Shown in pieces: positions 3 through 7,826 of a DNA stretch of 23,442 bases. Both the position numbers and the translations under genes were made by a program. Every line of letters begins with the position of its first letter. Position 1 is the first letter of the stretch. The stretch comes from a virus. The DNA lies in the IMG/VR virus record IMGVR_UViG_3300017717_000084, positions 1 through 23,442 of that record. One strand, written 5' to 3'. Below the pieces are notes generated by a model. That model was not told the origin of the DNA. It saw only the letters and a list, made by a program, of their open reading frames with translations, and did no database searches.

Positions 3-1169
3 GCTGGTGATGGACTTCATGTTTTAAATGTAGAACCTTGGGATGAATTACCAATATGTATGTTCTGTCCAGATCCTGAACCACATACAGCTATTGGTTC
101 ATGTCCAGCTGATTATCTAAAACCAATTCAGGCTGCTAAATCACAAATTATGCGTGATACTTTAGATTCACTAGGTCATTCAATCTTCCCAAGAATGGGT
201 ATTGTTGAAGGCCAAGTAAACGTAGATGACGTATTAAATACTGATATCGGTCAACCAATAAGAATGAGAGCGCCAGGCATGGTACAACCATTCGCAGTAC
301 CTTTTGTTGGTAAAGAAGCTTTCCCAGTTTTAGGATATTTAGACGAATCTAAAGAAAACAGAACAGGCGTATCTAAAGCAAGTGCAGGATTAAACGCAGA
401 AGCTTTACAATCTACAACTTCCGCAGCTGTAACTGCTACTATGAGCGGTGCGCAAGGCAGAGTAGAACTTATATGCAGACATTTTGCTGAAGGTGGTCTA
501 AAAGCCATGTTTAAAACAGTAAATAACTTGGTAATCAAACACCAAAATGCACAAGATATCTTTAGATTAAACGGTAAATTTATCCCTGTAGATCCAAGAT
601 ATTGGGATTCAGATAAAGATATGGTGGTAAATGTAGCTATATCTAAGTCATCCGACCAAGAAAAATATCAAGTTTTAACAGGATTAGCTGCAAAACAAGA
701 ACAAATCATGCAATTACTAGGCCCACAAAATCCATTGGTATCAATGCAACAATATGCTAATACTTTGACTAGAATGATTGAGTTAGCTGGTTTCCAAGAC
801 GCACAATCGTTTATAAATACAGAAGTTCCGCCAATGCCACCAATGCCACAAGAGCCACCACAGCCAGACCCAGCTGCTTTACTAGCACAGGCTGAAGCTC
901 AGAAAGCACAGGTACAAGCACAGAAAGCTATCATTGATGCAGAAACCGATAGAATGAAAATTATCATGGATGATGATAGACAAAGAGACATCGAAGAAGC
1001 ACAACTTAGAGTTAAAGCTTTAGAGTTACAAGCTAAGTATGGTGCGCAAATAAACATTGCAGAAATTAATGCTATTATGGAGCGAGATAGAGAAAATATT
1101 AGACAAAATGCAAAAGATCAAGCTCAAGGATTATTTACAGGCAATGTACCACCAACACAAAATATTTAA
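3..1169 (+). CDS. Phage portal protein, P22-type (C-terminal part; 5' end outside window)
   Basis: The portal forms the dodecameric ring at the capsid vertex through which DNA is packaged and ejected. The reading frame is open from the first complete codon at position 3, so the ATG at 60 is an internal methionine and the gene is truncated by the window edge. Recognised by the P22-type segment around RTGVSKASAGLNAEALQST followed by AQGRVELICRHFAEGGLKAMF, a pattern shared by portals of many podoviruses. The C-terminal third starts with a Pro-rich linker (PPMPPMPQEPPQPDP), then a long Ala/Gln/Glu-rich predicted coiled coil, which fits the helical barrel that extends into the capsid in this family. 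The terminase large subunit would be expected upstream, outside the window. The next gene overlaps its last 26 bases. Family assignment is good; the exact subfamily is inference. Confidence 0.88.
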   Translation, partial: AGDGLHVLNVEPWDELPICMFCPDPEPHTAIGSCPADYLKPIQAAKSQIMRDTLDSLGHSIFPRMGIVEGQVNVDDVLNTDIGQPIRMRAPGMVQPFAVPFVGKEAFPVLGYLDESKENRTGVSKASAGLNAEALQSTTSAAVTATMSGAQGRVELICRHFAEGGLKAMFKTVNNLVIKHQNAQDIFRLNGKFIPVDPRYWDSDKDMVVNVAISKSSDQEKYQVLTGLAAKQEQIMQLLGPQNPLVSMQQYANTLTRMIELAGFQDAQSFINTEVPPMPPMPQEPPQPDPAALLAQAEAQKAQVQAQKAIIDAETDRMKIIMDDDRQRDIEEAQLRVKALELQAKYGAQINIAEINAIMERDRENIRQNAKDQAQGLFTGNVPPTQNI

Positions 1170-1323
1170 TTTAGAAGTATTGGAAGGCGATATGGTTTAT
1201 GTTGGCAAAGAAATAAAAGCAAAAACTAAAGATGATGCGTTAAGAATTATGTCGCTTATGTCTGGTGGTGAAGTAAATTCAGATTCAGAAATTATATTTA
1301 TTGAAGAGAAGGAGTTACACTAA
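1144..1323 (+). CDS. Small hypothetical protein (59 aa)
   Basis: Not recognised. The frame is open upstream to 1057, but the ATG at 1144 is preferred because the upstream part lies inside the portal gene and only this start gives a short portal overlap (26 bases); an AGGA lies about 13 bases upstream. The protein begins MYHQHKIFNLEVLEGD and has an alternating strand/helix look: VLEGDMVYVGKEIKAKT, then DDALRIMSLMSGG, then an acidic IIFIEEKELH tail. No membrane segment or known motif is visible. Its stop codon overlaps the next start as TAATG, so it is translationally coupled to the AT-hook-like gene that follows. Possibly a small virion-associated or host-interaction protein; function unknown. 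Confidence 0.6.
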   Translation: MYHQHKIFNLEVLEGDMVYVGKEIKAKTKDDALRIMSLMSGGEVNSDSEIIFIEEKELH

Positions 1324-1451
1324 TGAAATACATAAGAAAGTTTTGGGTATGGTTGAAAGAAACGATACATAAGTTTTTAAACTGGTTTGATAGTTTTATG
1401 ACACCAGCACCAGTTATTAAAAAAAGAGGTAGACCAAGGAAGAAAAAATAA
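1323..1451 (+). CDS. Tiny basic protein with AT-hook-like tail (42 aa)
   Basis: This 42-codon gene fills the gap between its neighbours exactly: its ATG overlaps the previous stop (TAATG at 1321-1325) and its own stop overlaps the next start (TAATG at 1449-1453). The first 25 residues are aromatic and basic (KFWVWLKETIHKFLNWFDSF), consistent with an amphipathic helix that could lie on a membrane or protein surface. The C-terminus reads KKRGRPRKKK, containing the RGRP core of the AT-hook, which binds the minor groove of AT-rich DNA in known proteins. Whether it binds DNA here is inference; a lysine-rich tail can also bind RNA or phospholipid. The exact gene fit and coupling support it being a real gene. 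Confidence 0.6.
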   Translation: MKYIRKFWVWLKETIHKFLNWFDSFMTPAPVIKKRGRPRKKK

Positions 1452-1966
1452 TGACACCAGAATCTTTGCAAGAATTACAGCGCATATTGCTAACCAAGCA
1501 ACCAAGAGGTGCTGTTGGTTCTACGACTCCAGATGTAGGATCTATTACACCACTAAGTCCTTATGAAGCTTTGCAGGCAGAAAGAAGTCAATTAAGTTCT
1601 GATCCAGTTATAGCTAATTTACAAAAGTTTGGTCGTGGTGTTAAAGGTTTGTTTGAGCCTGAGACACCATTAGATTATCTTAGTATGGCTGCCCCACCAT
1701 TAAAAACAATTTCAAAACCATTAAAAACAATTTCAAAACCATTAAAAACAATTCCAAAAGCCAAAAAAATACAAAAAGGTGTTTATCAATATAGAGGTCA
1801 TATTATTGAAGATATGGGAGGTTATTGGAATTGGGGCGTATTGCCTAAAAAAGCAAAACATTGGACAGAAGCACAATATGAAGATGCTTCTAACAACTTA
1901 AAAGATGCAAAAAATTCTATTGATTCTATAATAGAAAAATCTGGTAAAAATTATTATAAAAATTAA
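1451..1966 (+). CDS. Hypothetical protein with internal tandem repeat (171 aa)
   Basis: Not recognised. Residues 1-75 are polar and low in structure (repeated SITPLSPYEALQAER-type segments). Residues 83-103 are three copies of a seven-residue unit (PLKTISK, PLKTISK, PLKTIPK) encoded by a 21-bp tandem repeat. The last 65 residues look like a compact small domain: YQYRGHIIEDMGGYWNWG, then a predicted helix HWTEAQYEDASNNLKDAKNSI. The first region may be a flexible arm and the repeat a linker to the C-terminal domain. The start overlaps the previous stop by one base, and the stop is followed 3 bases later by the next gene. Position between portal and capsid genes suggests a virion or morphogenesis role, but nothing in the sequence proves it. 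Confidence 0.65.
   Translation: MTPESLQELQRILLTKQPRGAVGSTTPDVGSITPLSPYEALQAERSQLSSDPVIANLQKFGRGVKGLFEPETPLDYLSMAAPPLKTISKPLKTISKPLKTIPKAKKIQKGVYQYRGHIIEDMGGYWNWGVLPKKAKHWTEAQYEDASNNLKDAKNSIDSIIEKSGKNYYKN
1697..1759 (+). repeat. 21-bp tandem repeat, three units
   Basis: Three head-to-tail copies of ccattaaaaacaatttcaaaa (1697-1717, 1718-1738, 1739-1759); the third differs by one base (t to c). It is in frame and encodes three PLKTI(S/P)K units in the 171-aa hypothetical protein. The near identity at DNA level suggests a recent expansion by slippage or unequal exchange. Confidence 0.9.
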
Positions 1967-1968
1967 TT

Positions 1969-2220
1969 ATGAGTATTACATATAGAGGCGAAAGATTTAG
2001 CGGTTATAACAAACCAAAACGAACACCAGGCAAATCTAAAAAGTTTGCTGTTCTTGCAAAAGTAAAAGACCAAGTTAAATTAATTAGATTTGGTGATCCG
2101 AATATGACAATTAAAAAAGACCAACCAAAAAGACGAGCATCTTTTCGCGCCAGACATAAATGTGATACTAACCCACCAAACAAATTAACAGCAAGATATT
2201 GGAGCTGTAAAAAATGGTAA
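1969..2220 (+). CDS. Conserved basic phage protein, DUF5754-like (83 aa)
   Basis: A small basic protein beginning SITYRGERFSGYNKPKRTP, with KFAVLAKVKDQVKLIRFGDP in the middle and an end of the type ARHKCDTNPPNKLTARYWSC. This combination (LIRFGD, RASFRARHKC, LTARYWSCKKW) matches my recollection of the DUF5754 family, found in cyanophages, pelagiphages and other viruses, function unknown. Length is usual for the family. Three cysteine/tryptophan-rich positions near the C-terminus are the most conserved part. The gene starts 2 bases after the previous stop and overlaps the next gene by 7 bases (stop codon inside ATGGTAA), so it is part of the coupled small-gene run. Family label is from memory and should be searched. 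Confidence 0.75.
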   Translation: MSITYRGERFSGYNKPKRTPGKSKKFAVLAKVKDQVKLIRFGDPNMTIKKDQPKRRASFRARHKCDTNPPNKLTARYWSCKKW

Positions 2221-2396
2221 GGAAGTTTAAAAAAGTTTCAAAAACTAAAAAAGGTGTACCTAAGAAATATGTTAAAGGTGCAAAGAATCCTAAAGCTAGA
2301 GAAAACGAAATACTTAGAACGCAAAGGTTATACGCATCTGGTAAATTAACAAAAGCTATGATGGATGCAATTTCAAAACAAAGAAGTAAAGGATGA
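2214..2396 (+). CDS. Small lysine-rich phage protein, DUF6321-like (60 aa)
   Basis: A 60-residue strongly basic protein. The N-terminal half is Lys-rich (VRKFKKVSKTKKGVPKKYVK); the second half is a predicted helical hairpin, ARENEILRTQRLYASGKLT followed by KAMMDAISKQRSKG. The VPKKYVKGAKNPKARE...EI..T..LY..GKLT pattern recurs in marine phages and I recall it as DUF6321-like, with moderate certainty. Function unknown; the charge suggests nucleic acid contact or packaging inside the capsid. Overlaps the upstream gene by 7 bases and the downstream gene by 4 (ATGA), so translation is coupled. Confidence 0.7.
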   Translation: MVRKFKKVSKTKKGVPKKYVKGAKNPKARENEILRTQRLYASGKLTKAMMDAISKQRSKG

Positions 2397-2626
2397 GTAA
2401 AAAAGCTTGTATAGATAAATATTCAAAGTCTAGTGGTATTTCAAGAGGTACACTTTCAAAGGTTTATCAACGTGGATTAGGTGCATATTATTCATCTGGT
2501 TCACGACCAAAAGTATCTGCACACCAATGGGCTTGTGGTAGAGTTCGATCATTTGCAACAGGTAGCGGTGGTGCAAGAAAAGCAGATTCAGATTTATTCA
2601 GACCTAAAAAATCTAAAAAGAAATGA
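2393..2626 (+). CDS. Conserved phage protein, DUF5824-like (77 aa)
   Basis: Recognised by the run of small motifs GISRGTLSKVYQRGLGAYYSSGSRP, AHQWACGRVRSF and GSGGARKADSDL, which is the DUF5824 pattern seen widely in phages of marine and other bacteria (label from memory). The middle of the protein combines a short helix-turn-helix-like segment with a conserved Trp-Ala-Cys-Gly-Arg-Val core; the C-terminus is a lysine tail. Its biochemical role is unknown. It overlaps the gene before it by four bases (ATGA) and the 31-codon gene after it by four bases, continuing the coupled chain. Confidence 0.75.
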   Translation: MSKKACIDKYSKSSGISRGTLSKVYQRGLGAYYSSGSRPKVSAHQWACGRVRSFATGSGGARKADSDLFRPKKSKKK

Positions 2627-2718
2627 GGTTATTAAAAGATTTATTAACTAGATTTTTAGAATGGTCTTTTGAACGAAAAGCTAATAAAATGTTTTTAAAA
2701 GCACAACAAGGAGAATAA
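2623..2718 (+). CDS. Tiny amphipathic protein (31 aa)
   Basis: An ATGA overlap with the preceding stop opens a 31-codon frame: MRLLKDLLTRFLEWSFERKA then a short basic tail. It would form a single amphipathic helix with a Leu/Phe/Trp face. The segment AAGGAGAATAATT before the next ATG gives that gene a good ribosome binding site, and it lies in the last codons of this one. Not recognised; kept because it exactly bridges two genes in a compact operon. A non-coding leader for the next gene is the alternative. Confidence 0.45.
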   Translation: MRLLKDLLTRFLEWSFERKANKMFLKAQQGE

Positions 2719-2720
2719 TT

Positions 2721-2798
2721 ATGCCAGGATATGGATATGGTAAACCAGCAATGAAACCTAAAAAGAAAAAAACAAAACCTAAGAAAAAAGGAAAATAA
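2721..2798 (+). CDS. Tiny polylysine protein (25 aa)
   Basis: A 25-residue product, MPGYGYGKPAMKPKKKK followed by TKPKKKGK; about half of its residues are lysine. It has a strong ribosome binding site (AAGGAGAATAATT ending 2 bases before the ATG region) and its stop is followed immediately by the next ATG. MPGYGYGK-plus-lysines peptides occur, as far as I recall, in many marine phage genomes between head genes. It cannot fold alone; binding to DNA, RNA or an acidic partner such as the scaffold is a reasonable inference. Confidence 0.55.
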   Translation: MPGYGYGKPAMKPKKKKTKPKKKGK

Positions 2799-2799
2799 T

Positions 2800-2913
2800 A
2801 TGCCTTTTAGTAAATACTCACCAAAACAAAAAAAATTAGCTAAAGTAGCAAAACCAAGAAATAAAATTACTGCTGCTGATTTTAAAAAATTACAAAAGAA
2901 AAAGAAAAAGTAA
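2800..2913 (+). CDS. Tiny lysine-rich protein (37 aa)
   Basis: Encodes MPFSKYSPKQKKLAKVAKPR, then NKITAADFKKLQKKKKK. The pattern SKYSPKQKKLA.VA.PR.KITAADF..L is one I recall from other marine phages as a conserved small protein of unknown role. It is predicted to be helical, with a fully basic C-terminus. The start lies one base after the previous stop and its stop shares a base with the next start (TAATG at 2911-2915), so it is inside the coupled chain. Confidence 0.6.
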   Translation: MPFSKYSPKQKKLAKVAKPRNKITAADFKKLQKKKKK

Positions 2914-3053
2914 TGAAAATAAAAGCACCTAAAGGTTATCACTTTATGAAAGATGGTAAGACTTATAAACTTATGAAACATACTGGTGGGTTTGTAAAAC
3001 ACAAAGGTGCTTCGCTTACAGCAGAGCTTCCTGTAATTAAAAAACATAAATGA
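2913..3053 (+). CDS. Tiny basic protein with GYHFMK...FVKHKGASLTA motif (46 aa)
   Basis: A 46-residue protein: MKIKAPKGYHFMKDGKTYKL, then MKHTGGFVKHKGASLTAEL and a PVIKKHK tail. The GYHWMK.G..YKLMK......KGASLTA pattern is recurrent in marine phage genomes as I remember it, which supports a real gene. Predicted to be mostly beta strand, with His and Lys spread along it. It overlaps the previous stop by one base and the nuclease-like gene that follows by four bases (ATGA at 3050-3053). Function unknown. Confidence 0.6.
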   Translation: MKIKAPKGYHFMKDGKTYKLMKHTGGFVKHKGASLTAELPVIKKHK

Positions 3054-3415
3054 AACCACAATCTGCCAAGGCTAAAGGCAGAGCTTTACAACAATGGGTT
3101 GTAGATAAGCTCGTTGAATTACTTGGTTTCGATCCTGAAGATTTAGAATCAAGACCCATGGGTTCTAATGGTGAAGATATTATTATGGGTGTTCAATCAA
3201 GAAAACAATTCCCTTACTCAATAGAGTGCAAAAACCAAGAATCAGTTAATGTATGGAAAGCATACGAACAATCGCAAGAAAACTGTAAAGCTTACGAACC
3301 TTTGGTTATAATAAAGAGAAATAGAACAAAGCCTCTCGCGTTAGTCGATGCTGAATACTTTATAAGGTTACATAATGATAGACAAACTAATACAACCAGT
3401 AACGAAGATTCTTGA
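3050..3415 (+). CDS. PD-(D/E)XK-like endonuclease / Holliday-junction-resolvase-like protein (121 aa)
   Basis: Likely a small DNA-cleaving enzyme. After a helix (QQWVVDKLVELLGF) comes MGSNGEDIIMG with an acidic pair at E42-D43, a short gap, then the strand SIECKNQE with E59-x-K61; this order (acid, then E-x-K on a strand) is the PD-(D/E)XK active-site layout. The segment EQSQENCKAYEPLVIIKRN and a final ALVDAEYFIRL strand/helix are typical of the phage resolvase-like members. Possible jobs are resolving branched DNA before packaging or host DNA breakdown. It overlaps the upstream gene by 4 bases, and its last 41 bases are also the start of the holin gene, an unusually long overlap. Fold call is by eye; catalysis is not proven. 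Confidence 0.68.
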   Translation: MKPQSAKAKGRALQQWVVDKLVELLGFDPEDLESRPMGSNGEDIIMGVQSRKQFPYSIECKNQESVNVWKAYEQSQENCKAYEPLVIIKRNRTKPLALVDAEYFIRLHNDRQTNTTSNEDS

Positions 3416-3746
3416 TAAGTTCATACCAGACGCAGATACAAAACAACAAATAGCGCATGAACTTGCAACTATGTCTGAAAAGCACATCCATGAGATTGCA
3501 AAAGCACAAATAGAAGTAAACAAAGAAGAAGCTAAAGGTAATTGGTTTCAGTCATCTTGGCGACCTGCAACAGCATGGATTTGTGTTTGTGGTTTTGCAG
3601 TAAACTTTTTAATTAGTCCACTTGCTGCTCCTTTTGGTATTGATATACCACAAGCAGATACATCAACCATGTTGCCTGTTTTAATGGGTATGTTAGGATT
3701 AGGTGGTATGAGAAGTTATGAGAAAACTAAAGGATTAACAAAATGA
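3375..3746 (+). CDS. Holin, 3TM / GTA-type (123 aa)
   Basis: Holins make the inner-membrane holes that time lysis and release the endolysin. The N-terminal 50 residues are charged and helical (ILDKFIPDADTKQQIAHELA), followed by NWFQSSWRPATAWICVCGFA entering a first membrane segment, a short loop with FGIDIPQADTS, and a second hydrophobic segment TMLPVLMGMLGLGGMRSYEK. The W.ratsWRP...W pattern followed by LPVLMGMLGLG.MRSyEK is characteristic of the 3TM holin family named from gene transfer agents (PF11351 type). Overlap of 41 bases with the upstream nuclease-like gene and 4 bases with the endolysin supports a lysis cassette. Confidence 0.85.
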   Translation: MIDKLIQPVTKILDKFIPDADTKQQIAHELATMSEKHIHEIAKAQIEVNKEEAKGNWFQSSWRPATAWICVCGFAVNFLISPLAAPFGIDIPQADTSTMLPVLMGMLGLGGMRSYEKTKGLTK

Positions 3747-4114
3747 GTTGGGAGAATTTCAGAATAGAAGAGTTCGCTTGTAAGCATTGTGGTGAAAATA
3801 AGATTGAACACGAACTAATAGATAAGTTACAATTACTAAGAAGCGATGTAGGCTTTCCATTTAAAATAACAAGTGGATATAGATGTGCAGATCATCCGAT
3901 AGAAAAAGTCAAATCTGAACCAGGCACGCACGCATTAGGACTAGCTGCTGACATATTACTCAGAGGCGAGCAAGCACTAGAAGTAATATCAAAAGCAACT
4001 GATTATGGATTTACAGGCATAGGAATTAACCAAAAAGGCAATGCAAGATTTATACACTTGGACATCTCAAAAGACTCACAGGGTAGGCCACGCCCTCATG
4101 TGTGGAGCTACTAA
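3743..4114 (+). CDS. M15-family zinc peptidase endolysin (123 aa)
   Basis: Predicted L,D/D,D-peptidase that cuts peptidoglycan cross-links, acting in the periplasm after the holin opens the membrane. The whole length matches Peptidase_M15_3: FRIEEFACKHCG at the start, FKITSGYRCADHP at 40-52, H63-A-L-G-L-A-A-D70 and H105-L-D107, giving the expected zinc ligands H63, D70 and H105. No signal peptide is visible, so export depends on the holin. The loop after GYR, normally containing N..V.GG, is here PIEKVKSEPGTH, a slight departure. Overlaps the holin by four bases (ATGA). The family call is strong; the exact bond cleaved is inference. Confidence 0.9.
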   Translation: MSWENFRIEEFACKHCGENKIEHELIDKLQLLRSDVGFPFKITSGYRCADHPIEKVKSEPGTHALGLAADILLRGEQALEVISKATDYGFTGIGINQKGNARFIHLDISKDSQGRPRPHVWSY

Positions 4115-4355: not shown

Positions 4356-5546
4356 ATGGAAATAGACGCTTTAAATAGAATGTTGGAAGGCATGAGAGAG
4401 AATGAGGACTTTAGACGAAGAGAAAGATCGCTAGATATACCAGGTATATATCAAAACCAAGGAGGCATGGGTAATGTTGCTAGTTTTGGTGATAGCGGTG
4501 GTTTTAATTTTTTAGGTATACCTTCAGGCGGAAATGGTGGTTTTGGCGGAAGTGGTGGTTATATGCAAATTTTAAGAAATCTTGCAACTCAACAACCACA
4601 ACTAGGTCCAGATGATTTCGGCAGTTATACAATACCCTTGTCAGATCCTACATATCGTTCTGGTTTTGATTATGCGCGTTCTATAGCAGGCGGCATACCA
4701 ATGGAACAAGTCATTGCACCAGGCGTAAGCTATTCTCCAGAACAACCAGGTGGTTATACACAAGAACAATTAAACATACCTAGAGATGTAGAAAGACTTA
4801 CACCTCCACCAATTTTACCTCCAACAAGAGAACCTGATGATCCAAGATATTTTGGCACAGGTATTGGTGGTGTAAATATTCCAGTAGATAGAAAACAAAT
4901 ACCGAGTAGATTATTACCTCCGATATATGGTCCAGGTCGTTTTGATATTAGAGATTTTGCTACAGGTATTGATGGTGTTCAAATACCAGATGTGCCTACA
5001 GGTAGGGATTTCTCTATAGATAGAGAGGTTTTGGAAAGACCTATGATATCTGGTTTAGAGAACAGAGATTTAATGGATGTTGATTCTTTAATTACACAAG
5101 TTCCAACAGGTAGAGATTTTTCAGTAGATAGAGAACGAATCCCACCACAAGACTTTGGATATGGTCCAGGTGTACTACCACCTTCACCCCCAATGGACAT
5201 AAGGGATATACCCCCAATGGATATAATAGATATACCACCAATGGATATAATAGATATACCACCAAAAATAAACGACCAGATATTTATTGATGACAGACCA
5301 ATAATTGATGAAAGAATAGTAGACCGTGGTTATGGACCAGGTATAATGCCTCCATTACCACCAATGGATATTGATAAGGTAATACCACCAGTAGATATAC
5401 CACCAATAGATATACCTTTTATACCTTTTATAAAACCTCCATCAATTATGGATAGGCCTTTAATTATAGATACCCCAACAATTATGGATAGGCCTACAGG
5501 TGATAGGTTTTCAATAGCACGATCAAAACCAATGGGATTATTTTAA
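4356..5546 (+). CDS. Pro/Asp/Ile-rich repetitive protein (396 aa), probably disordered
   Basis: Not recognised. The first 30 residues form a charged helix (MEIDALNRMLEGMRENEDFR); residues 35-75 are Gly-rich (NGGFGGSGGY); the rest is composed of recurring short blocks: PTGRDFS(I/V)DRE twice, GYGPG(V/I)(L/M)PP(S/L)PPMDI twice, FGTGIGGVNIP/FATGIDGVQIP, and tandem PPMDIIDI units. It is low-complexity and likely intrinsically disordered or an extended polyproline-like rod. Pro-rich anchors and multiple similar DFSIDRE pegs would suit a binding scaffold for a partner protein. The location between lysis and capsid genes does not settle whether it is structural. It overlaps the next gene by one base (TAATG). 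Confidence 0.65.
   Translation: MEIDALNRMLEGMRENEDFRRRERSLDIPGIYQNQGGMGNVASFGDSGGFNFLGIPSGGNGGFGGSGGYMQILRNLATQQPQLGPDDFGSYTIPLSDPTYRSGFDYARSIAGGIPMEQVIAPGVSYSPEQPGGYTQEQLNIPRDVERLTPPPILPPTREPDDPRYFGTGIGGVNIPVDRKQIPSRLLPPIYGPGRFDIRDFATGIDGVQIPDVPTGRDFSIDREVLERPMISGLENRDLMDVDSLITQVPTGRDFSVDRERIPPQDFGYGPGVLPPSPPMDIRDIPPMDIIDIPPMDIIDIPPKINDQIFIDDRPIIDERIVDRGYGPGIMPPLPPMDIDKVIPPVDIPPIDIPFIPFIKPPSIMDRPLIIDTPTIMDRPTGDRFSIARSKPMGLF
5187..5258 (+). repeat. 24-bp tandem repeat, three units
   Basis: Three in-frame copies of a 24-bp unit (5187-5210, 5211-5234, 5235-5258) encoding PPMDIRDI, PPMDIIDI, PPMDIIDI. Units 2 and 3 differ at one base. Further decayed copies (PPMDIDKV, PPVDIPPID) follow to about 5420, so the gene has grown by repeat duplication. 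Confidence 0.85.
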
Positions 5547-5873: not shown

Positions 5874-6878
5874 ATGAGCAATAACGGAAAACCGACTGCT
5901 TTACAAACAGATAGTGAAATAGCTGCCACTATGTTTGAAAGTTTCTTGACCCCTGAAGAGGATAAGGTTGAAGAGGCAGTCGCAGAAACAGAAGAAGCAG
6001 TAGAAGAAGTCCTTGAAGAAGAACTTGAAGCACCTGAAACTCTTGAAGAAGATGTGGAAGATGAAGAAGAGTTTGACGAAGAGGACGAATTAGATGAAGA
6101 ACAAACCGATGTTGAAGAGGAAGCCTTGCAACCTCAGACATTTACAGTAAAAGTAGATGGTCAAGAAGTTGAGGTTACGCAAGATGAACTTATCAACGGA
6201 TATTCTCGTCAGCAAGATTATACGCGCAAGACACAAGAACTCTCTCAACAGCGTAAGACTATTGAGCAGCAGCAAGCAGAGTTAGCGCAAAGAGATGCGA
6301 TATATTCGCAGTTGTTACCGAAGATGGAAGCCCAATTAAAGGGCGAACTGGCTAACGAACCAGATTGGAACGCTTTGTATGAAGATGATCCTGTTGGTTA
6401 TGTTCGCGAAAAACAGCTTTGGGATGAAAAGAAAGAAAAGCTTAGTGCTGTAAGTGCTGAACAACAAAGACTTCAACAAGAAGCCTTGGTAAAACAGCAA
6501 CAACAAATACAACAATTTGTTGAATATGGCAATCAAAAGCTTCTTGAAATAATCCCAGAATGGCAAAACCCAGAGGTTGCTGCCAAAGAAAAAGCTGCTA
6601 TAAGCGAGTATGCAATGAGGGAGTTGGAATATACTCCTGAAGAGATACAACAGGTTTATGATTATCGTGCTTTGCTTGGTTTAAGAAATGCTTGGTTAAA
6701 CTCTCGAACAGTTGAAGCCACAAAGAAAAAACCAACACAAAAAGCACCAGCAAGAGTTGCTAGACCTGGTACGACTAACCGACCAAAAACGACAACACCT
6801 GTGAAGAAAGCAAAACAAAGGTTGGCCAAAACTGGGAAAACCTCAGATGCGGCTAAAGTATTTGAACAATTAATTTAA
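5874..6878 (+). CDS. Capsid scaffolding protein (334 aa)
   Basis: Directs procapsid assembly and leaves before or during DNA packaging. The N-terminal 25-85 region is extremely acidic (long Glu/Asp runs), followed by a short beta motif TFTVKVDGQEVEVTQDELIN and RQQDYTRKTQELSQQRKTIE, the start of a long Gln/Glu-rich coiled coil. The C-terminal 60 residues are basic (KKKPTQKAPARVARPGTTNR and PVKKAKQRLAKTGK), the usual coat-binding end. This acidic N, coiled-coil middle, basic C plan, and the position directly before the coat gene, are typical of tailed-phage scaffolds. The start at 5874 is fixed by AAGGAG 7 bases upstream. The acidic arm could contact the lysine-rich small proteins encoded upstream (inference). 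Confidence 0.88.
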   Translation: MSNNGKPTALQTDSEIAATMFESFLTPEEDKVEEAVAETEEAVEEVLEEELEAPETLEEDVEDEEEFDEEDELDEEQTDVEEEALQPQTFTVKVDGQEVEVTQDELINGYSRQQDYTRKTQELSQQRKTIEQQQAELAQRDAIYSQLLPKMEAQLKGELANEPDWNALYEDDPVGYVREKQLWDEKKEKLSAVSAEQQRLQQEALVKQQQQIQQFVEYGNQKLLEIIPEWQNPEVAAKEKAAISEYAMRELEYTPEEIQQVYDYRALLGLRNAWLNSRTVEATKKKPTQKAPARVARPGTTNRPKTTTPVKKAKQRLAKTGKTSDAAKVFEQLI

Positions 6879-6890
6879 AGGAATATAACA

Positions 6891-7826
6891 ATGGCTAAAG
6901 TAACAAACGCCTTTGATACATATACAGCTACTGCTGACAGAGAAGATTTAAGTAATATTATTTACAACATTTCTCCAATGCAAACTCCGTTTATGTCATC
7001 AATCGGAAAAAGAAATATAAAAAACGTAGTATTTGATTGGCAGACAGAAAGTCTACCTACTCCAAGTGCCGCTGGACAGCTTGAAGGTTTTGAACTATCA
7101 AGAGCTGCTTCTACAGCTACAGCAAGAGCAAGTAATGTTGCTATGATTTCAGCTAGAGATGCAACTGTAACAGGTTCACAAGAAGCTTCAGATGCAGCTG
7201 GTAAGAGATCAGAAATGGCTCACCAACTTGCTATTATGGCTAAAGCACTTAAAAGAGATATGGAAGAAGCTCTATGTCAAAAAGGTGCTAAAACAACTGG
7301 TAATGCTACAACAGCTAGGGTAACTGGTGGTTTCGAGTCTTGGATTACAACTAACGATTCAAGAGGAACTAACGGTGCTTCTACTGGTGGCGGTGCTGCT
7401 CCAACAGACGGAACACAAAGAGCATTAACAGAAACTTTATTAAAAGATGTATTACAACTTATGTTTGCTAGTGGTGCAGAGCCTAACATGGCAATCTGTG
7501 GTCCTGTAAATAAGCAGAAGATTTCTGCTTTCACAGGTAGAACACAAGCTAGACAATTTGTTGATGCAAACACAGTCGAAGCTTCAGTATCAATCTATTC
7601 ATCTGACTTTGGTGAACTAAAAATCGTTCCATCAAACAGATCAAGAGAAAGATCATTGTTGTTAGTAGATCCAGAGTTTGCAAAAGTGTCATACCTAAGA
7701 GATTTCCAAACTATTGATATCTCAACAATAGGTGATGCTGAGACTAAGATGATTATTTGTGAGTACGGATTAGAAGTATCTAATGAAGCTGCTCATGGTG
7801 TCGTTGCAGACTTAACAACATCATAA
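6891..7826 (+). CDS. Major capsid protein, SU10/DUF5309 type (311 aa)
   Basis: Forms the icosahedral shell. The N-terminus DREDLSNIIYNISPMQTPFM followed by VFDWQTESLPTPSAAGQLEG is the signature of the SU10-like coat family (DUF5309), which adopts the HK97 fold in studied members. The middle (SQEASDAAGKRSEMAHQLAI and RDMEEALCQKGA) corresponds to the long spine helix and the C-terminal half (PSNRSRERSLLLVDPEFAKV and YLRDFQTIDISTIGDAETK) to the beta P/A domains. Length is normal. It has its own AAAGGA site 9-12 bases upstream and is followed by a strong terminator, fitting a highly expressed gene at the end of a transcription unit. Confidence 0.93.
   Translation: MAKVTNAFDTYTATADREDLSNIIYNISPMQTPFMSSIGKRNIKNVVFDWQTESLPTPSAAGQLEGFELSRAASTATARASNVAMISARDATVTGSQEASDAAGKRSEMAHQLAIMAKALKRDMEEALCQKGAKTTGNATTARVTGGFESWITTNDSRGTNGASTGGGAAPTDGTQRALTETLLKDVLQLMFASGAEPNMAICGPVNKQKISAFTGRTQARQFVDANTVEASVSIYSSDFGELKIVPSNRSRERSLLLVDPEFAKVSYLRDFQTIDISTIGDAETKMIICEYGLEVSNEAAHGVVADLTTS

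Follow-up and report, generated by a model that had tools for sequence, protein, structure and literature searches.

A modular cassette of small overlapping genes beside the portal gene of an SU10-like podovirus, with a candidate effector slot

The internal head proteins of bacteriophage T4 are packaged inside the head and ejected together with the DNA. T4 Alt is packaged and injected as well, and polyvalent proteins, for which injection is predicted, likewise contain RelA/SpoT and ADP-ribosyltransferase (ART) domains (PMC5512222). In the MuF polymorphic toxins of temperate phages, ART and RelA-like domains are encoded by portal-adjacent genes accompanied by small immunity open reading frames (ORFs), and the authors of that study propose that the toxins are loaded into the head and delivered along with the DNA (PMC5576092). 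Here, we analyse a chain of ten small genes (g01–g10) next to the portal gene in the IMG/VR virus record IMGVR_UViG_3300017717_000084, whose whole length of 23,442 nt (23.4 kb) is hereafter called the window. According to Pfam and PHROG profile matches, the window encodes an SU10-type portal, a scaffold protein and a major capsid protein (MCP), and by this gene content the virus is an SU10-like podovirus, apparently of marine origin, judging from related isolates. We propose, with about even confidence, that the chain is a late accessory cassette in which an effector slot, occupied by g03, is combined with small, mostly basic proteins of the head region that would be packaged and ejected.

The sole large gene of the chain, g03, resembles the MuF toxin genes in that it lies downstream of the portal region and encodes a constant N-terminus with swappable C-termini, RelA-like and ART modules included, and in that a small candidate immunity ORF stands beside one of its variants (RelA/SpoT). 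It differs from them in that g01 and g02 lie between the portal gene and g03, the constant region comprises just ~75 aa, the gene belongs to a podovirus with an SU10-type head, and the candidate immunity gene is convergent and was seen with the RelA/SpoT variant only. No match to an N-terminal MuF domain (e.g., PF04233) was obtained in g03 or its relatives; g03 thus falls outside the MuF toxins so defined, but it plausibly works like one. With T4 Alt and the T4 internal head proteins, the likeness lies in the proposed packaging into the head and ejection with the DNA, and does not extend to any shown sequence relation or targeting sequence. The polyvalent proteins share with g03-type proteins the ART-PolyVal family, RelA/SpoT effectors and a location among virion genes, but the g03-type proteins are short and carry one effector domain each instead of 2–15 (PMC5512222).

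The ten genes follow each other with a longest spacer of 2 nt (Table 1). The junctions are TAATG at g01/g02, g02/g03 and g09/g10, and ATGA at g05/g06, g06/g07 and g10/RusA-like gene, so that one or the other occurs at six of the chain's ten junctions, that with the RusA-like gene included; g04 and g05 overlap by 7 nt, and the spacers at g03/g04, g07/g08 and g08/g09 measure 2, 2 and 1 nt. When a chain was defined as ATG-started ORFs no shorter than 25 aa and joined at −8 to +8 nt, the longest chain comprised 10 ORFs, against a mean of 1.2 and a maximum of 3 in 100 dinucleotide-preserving shuffles, at most 3 in the other 2-kb blocks of the window, and 1 on the reverse strand. The nine testable genes are under purifying selection, with ratios of non-synonymous to synonymous substitution (dN/dS; NG86 over relatives found through the portal) of 0.04–0.44, the weakest being that of g07; the reference values are 0.08 for the portal, 0.21 for the MCP and 0.27 for the scaffold, and g03 stood outside this comparison because the filter left it a single distinct sequence of full length. 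Lysine-rich open frames are favoured by an A-rich strand, and the ORFs might on that ground be taken for spurious products of A-rich DNA, yet the chain statistics of the shuffles, the dN/dS values and the conservation in tens of relatives rule this out and leave it extremely improbable. The observation made in the preliminary description, namely ten small ORFs of these lengths with almost no spacer between portal and lysis genes, is confirmed by the lengths and junctions and by the borders, with the portal gene upstream and the RusA-like gene, then the holin and endolysin genes, downstream; the conservation and non-neutral evolution considered there are likewise borne out.

Gene order was compared in 63 sequences with enough downstream DNA, the window included, and these hold 44 ORF clusters in 42 gene orders, some of which differ merely by contig ends or a doubtful short ORF call. 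g01 is present in all 63 sequences and g02 in 51. No locus holds both g04 (35 loci) and f06, a family of basic proteins (24 loci; Fisher p ~1e-13, a value that overstates independence, as the sequences share ancestry); f06 had been suspected by eye to be a homologue of g04, which was not supported (hhalign probability 16%). Sinorhizobium phage phiM5, among the closest isolates by portal (42%), has just two short genes between its portal and scaffold genes, whereas the same interval in the window spans ~4.7 kb and holds the small-gene chain, the RusA-like nuclease, the holin and the M15 endolysin. By this comparison, the chain resembles an accessory insertion within the late head region. As judged from these arrangements, the stretch is a modular, swappable accessory cassette between the portal and lysis genes.

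In g03, exchange takes place within the gene itself: the N-terminal ~75 residues are found again in relatives, without exception right after g02 or g01, and the remainder is replaced. The C-terminal modules found on this N-terminus comprise RelA_SpoT (above the cut-off in the loci L178 (4.5e-7), L269 and L271, below it in L014, L037 and L075), Zeta_toxin (L274, 2.7e-16, on the same contig as L045), ART-PolyVal (L041, 8.6e-11), the phrog_2579 C-terminal domain (L068, 2.2e-25, and L031), and three modules without a family match (L265, L061 and the window). The variants of g03 with a RelA/SpoT or phrog_2579 module gave no meaningful match in the PDB. As far as roughly codon 59 of the aligned g03 frame, the DNA of L274 is 98–99% identical to that of L268 and L270; it is unrelated thereafter, and 98–99% identity resumes just before g04; the window and L014 show the identical swap pattern at 86–87% identity, with the exchange at window positions ~1676–1966. 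Thus, RelA_SpoT, Zeta_toxin, ART-PolyVal and other modules stand on one N-terminus between near-identical flanks, which is a trait of polymorphic toxins. Among loci with both borders, the slot holds an insert in 36 and none in 60; some contigs enter these counts as overlapping copies, and a few short gaps are also included. In L179 and L051, the slot between g01/g02 and g04 is taken by larger, unrelated ORFs, and three 21-bp tandem copies (encoding PLKTISK) lie at the constant/variable joint of the window's g03 (1696–1769).

RelA/SpoT variants of g03 are followed by a convergent ORF of 70–73 aa, e.g., L013:6245-6463 on the minus strand, with equivalents in L014, L027, L062, L075 and L178 and no Pfam family. 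The encoded proteins are 46–100% identical, dN/dS is 0.07–0.21, and a TATAAT-like element lies directly upstream. This candidate immunity gene was found in ten IMG/VR contigs, all ten of which have the RelA/SpoT variant of g03; the variant in L037 reaches the contig end, where the downstream neighbour is not visible. Relatives of its protein could not be confirmed in bacterial genomes, in which pattern matches only were obtained.

Several of the remaining products belong to families of unknown function that recur in other phages. g04 covers positions 6–96 of the 96 in the phrog_7595 profile, which has matches in 159 isolate phages. In ICP1 gp125, the g04 domain is C-terminal and an XkdF-type prohead protease (Peptidase_S78_2, 7.5e-10) N-terminal, and in Aeromonas phage phiA019 the order is the opposite, with the g04 domain N-terminal to Peptidase_S78_2. 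The AlphaFold2 (AF2) model of g04 matched no PDB entry; among predicted viral structures it matches ICP1 ORF125 and an XkdF-named fusion, and it weakly matches a giant-virus protein (Tunisvirus, E 0.07). A DNA-binding fold for g04 or g06 was considered and found no PDB match by sequence or fold. g06 alone matches DUF5824 (PF19141) with 49.2 bits (cut-off 25) and g05 and g06 concatenated with 51.5 bits, so that the two genes encode the halves of a domain which, unlike the DUF5824 of Pfam, is split here into two overlapping genes. The domain is unsplit in L120 and L123, and L143 fuses its C-terminal half to g04. An alternative pair, f09 and f10, represents two halves of DUF5872, the second of which alone falls under the Pfam cut-off; this pair and the DUF5824 halves never co-occur in 159 wider loci, a count biased by the choice of these loci through g04 or g06 queries. 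Kinship of g05/g06 to the DUF5872 halves was not supported, and tblastn of g05 and g09 against isolate phages found no homologue.

A g04-type gene in KBS-S-2A and a DUF5824 gene in MED4-184 are both located between head-morphogenesis (MuF) and scaffold–MCP genes, and in another pelagiphage, HTVC106P, genes of the g04, g10 and DUF5872 types form a cluster, its DNA being similar over g09–g10. Members of the g04 and DUF5824 families thus recur as late-region proteins in aquatic phages, frequently, though not always, beside head genes. In T4-like marine phages (L082:2364-4313, L091:2040-3827, L161:3373-6174), DUF5824 is fused to a nucleotidyltransferase-like domain, as is a g04-like domain in Melnitz. 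DUF5824-, DUF5872-type and related basic proteins from other phages share a C-terminal tag like RGCGAVMxxRRKKTR (L120:1734-2372, L123:690-1313, L220:3818-4303, L241:2412-2873, L212:6089-6406, L236:2035-2355), which is missing from the cassette and might be a common targeting signal. A second overlapping chain of tiny genes with a DUF5872-type member lies upstream of GroES and capsid genes in HTVC027P (gp44–gp54; L258).

The preliminary description had also pointed to mostly polycationic products, an AT-hook core, one product of about half lysine and an acidic scaffold protein encoded downstream. The last three hold: the RGRP core of g02, flanked by basic residues, is kept in 47 of 51 sequences, g08 has 11 Lys in 25 residues, and the scaffold protein (phrog_3927) has a net charge of −35. 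Seven of the ten products are strongly basic, but g01 is acidic (net −5), and g03 (+8 over 171 aa) and g07 (+3) carry only a weak charge. Per residue, the mean net charge is 0.21 in the chain and 0.16 in shuffled-sequence ORFs (95th percentile 0.30); since the latter are already this basic, basicness alone is not strong evidence, and the lysine richness follows largely from the A-rich strand. The interpretation first given, that the ten products form one polycationic set condensing the head DNA, draws on the basic products, the retained AT-hook and the nearby acidic scaffold. It is very unlikely, as the A-rich strand predicts a basic composition, g01 is acidic and g03 effector-like, the members come from several families and are replaced independently of one another, and the g04 and g06 models have no significant PDB match. 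The interpretation is partly supported in its other aspects. Head-associated late proteins fit genes that are arranged together, under selection and situated in the late head region; in unrelated phages, members of the g04 and g06 families repeatedly lie next to head genes, and g04 is fused to prohead proteases. As for a host-takeover set delivered early, a delivered role in which the protein acts on the host is plausible for g03, given its toxin-like relatives, while no evidence of early expression was found.

In the late, packaged cassette that we favour, the chain would have been inserted between the portal gene and the lysis, scaffold and capsid genes, with translation coupled along it, and its products would be made late, as the location in the late head region argues. 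g03 would enter the procapsid via its constant N-terminus, be ejected with the DNA and act, possibly as a toxin, on the next host; such a route is known from T4 Alt and has been proposed for MuF toxins. The small, mostly basic proteins (g04, the split DUF5824 of g05 and g06, and the Lys-rich g08–g10) might pass into the head together with the acidic scaffold, perhaps in contact with it or with the DNA, or aid its maturation. It is possible, though on balance doubtful, that the g03 N-terminus is a new capsid-loading and ejection signal, serving as a general port for toxin-like effectors (putatively alarmone synthetase, Zeta kinase and ADP-ribosyltransferase), and that split DUF5824/DUF5872 and phrog_7595 form a class of head-interior proteins not recognised before, which other phages and perhaps giant viruses would also possess. 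Several observations weigh against packaging and delivery. The C-terminus of the window's g03 (1676–1966) matches no family, for which reason the suggestion of a toxin-like cargo rests on the relatives, and its homologues were found just in the near-identical contig; the constant N-terminus matches no known family either, and comparison with a 1012-aa late protein showed no kinship. The window's g03 has no convergent gene, g04 following it directly. Some g04 and g06 homologues are found at a distance from head genes, close to genes for lysis or the tail, nucleotidyltransferase-like fusions of DUF5824 exist in Melnitz and HTVC008M, and the two short portal–scaffold genes of phiM5 carry no proteome note, whereas its portal, scaffold and MCP have one.

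The leading alternative is a cassette of late accessory genes whose products work solely within the infected cell and never enter the particle, the toxin-like g03 variants excluding competing phages or serving anti-defence and the rest being assorted accessory genes. The optional presence and high turnover of g03 (in the slot counts above, overlapping contig copies counted) and the TATAAT-like element upstream of the candidate immunity gene, which fits self-protection of the producing cell, agree with this view; it is nevertheless somewhat unlikely, since the swapping of the C-terminus with retention of the N-terminus argues for a shared trafficking step, and g04 and DUF5824 are repeatedly associated with head genes and prohead protease. 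The fusion of g04 to an XkdF-type prohead protease in both orders, together with the small genes that other phages have between those for MuF, scaffold and MCP, would also suit prohead maturation cofactors, as assembly proteins or protease adaptors, with the g04 and DUF5824/DUF5872 proteins leaving or being degraded during maturation. However, none of the window genes examined was identified as encoding a prohead protease, many relatives do without the genes in question, and g03 would be left unexplained, which makes such a role unlikely.

Beyond the cassette, an ORF of 396 aa rich in Pro, Ile and Asp (window 4356-5546) is very variable among relatives (36–70% identity) and has no family match. 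CsgG- and curlin-like proteins, judged by eye, are encoded in L018 and ~20 more relatives (f08, f13; 1595–3113 nt past the portal end in L018), and a possible phage curli module in the L018 lineage replaces the RusA, holin and endolysin genes, after the small genes. A promoter scan gave nothing above chance, and a tRNA search found none.

Table 1. Features of the cassette and its surroundings in the window (pLDDT, predicted local distance difference test).
Feature	Position	Strand	Evidence and distribution
Portal protein, C-terminal part (SU10_portal)	3..1169	+	Pfam PF23899 E 1.7e-97; phrog_1216
g01, 59 aa, acidic, overlaps portal end, cassette anchor	1144..1323	+	63/63 sequences; dN/dS 0.14
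g02, 42 aa, aromatic N-terminal stretch and AT-hook KKRGRPRKKK	1323..1451	+	51/63 sequences; RGRP 47/51; dN/dS 0.25
g03 (171 aa), constant N-terminal region, ~75 codons	1451..1675	+	87% DNA identity to L014 stops near 1675; common to all g03 types
g03, variable C-terminal module, no known family	1676..1966	+	relatives have RelA/SpoT, Zeta, ART, other modules there
g04, 83 aa, phrog_7595 domain	1969..2220	+	phrog_7595 E 2.6e-22; AF2 pLDDT 88.9; dN/dS 0.12
g05, 60 aa, DUF5824 N-terminal half	2214..2396	+	g05+g06 concatenated vs PF19141 1-117/127, E 1.4e-13; dN/dS 0.23
g06, 77 aa, DUF5824 C-terminal half	2393..2626	+	PF19141 E 7.7e-13; AF2 helical model pLDDT 79.5; dN/dS 0.13
g07, 31 aa	2623..2718	+	11 sequences of gene-order set; dN/dS 0.44
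g08, 25 aa, 44% Lys	2721..2798	+	14 sequences; dN/dS 0.04 (6 distinct sequences)
g09, 37 aa, Lys-rich	2800..2913	+	24 sequences; dN/dS 0.11
g10, 46 aa	2913..3053	+	17 sequences; homologues in HTVC103P, HTVC104P, HTVC106P, CRP-901; dN/dS 0.14
RusA-like / PD-(D/E)XK nuclease, downstream border of cassette	3050..3415	+	phrog_244 E 3.5e-20
Holin and M15 endolysin	3375..4114	+	PF11351 4.9e-17, PF08291 3.6e-10
Acidic scaffold protein and SU10-type MCP	5874..7826	+	phrog_3927 8.6e-57; PF17236 1.1e-86

The g03 locus would add an effector slot of non-MuF type to the theme of polymorphic toxins in phages, and since near-identical genomes differ at this slot in the effector module alone, the question of delivery is directly testable. 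In addition, phrog_7595, DUF5824 and DUF5872, which occur in phages and partly in large algal viruses, are linked here to head-gene neighbourhoods, and phrog_7595 also to the prohead protease; these links may offer a first testable function for the three unnamed families.

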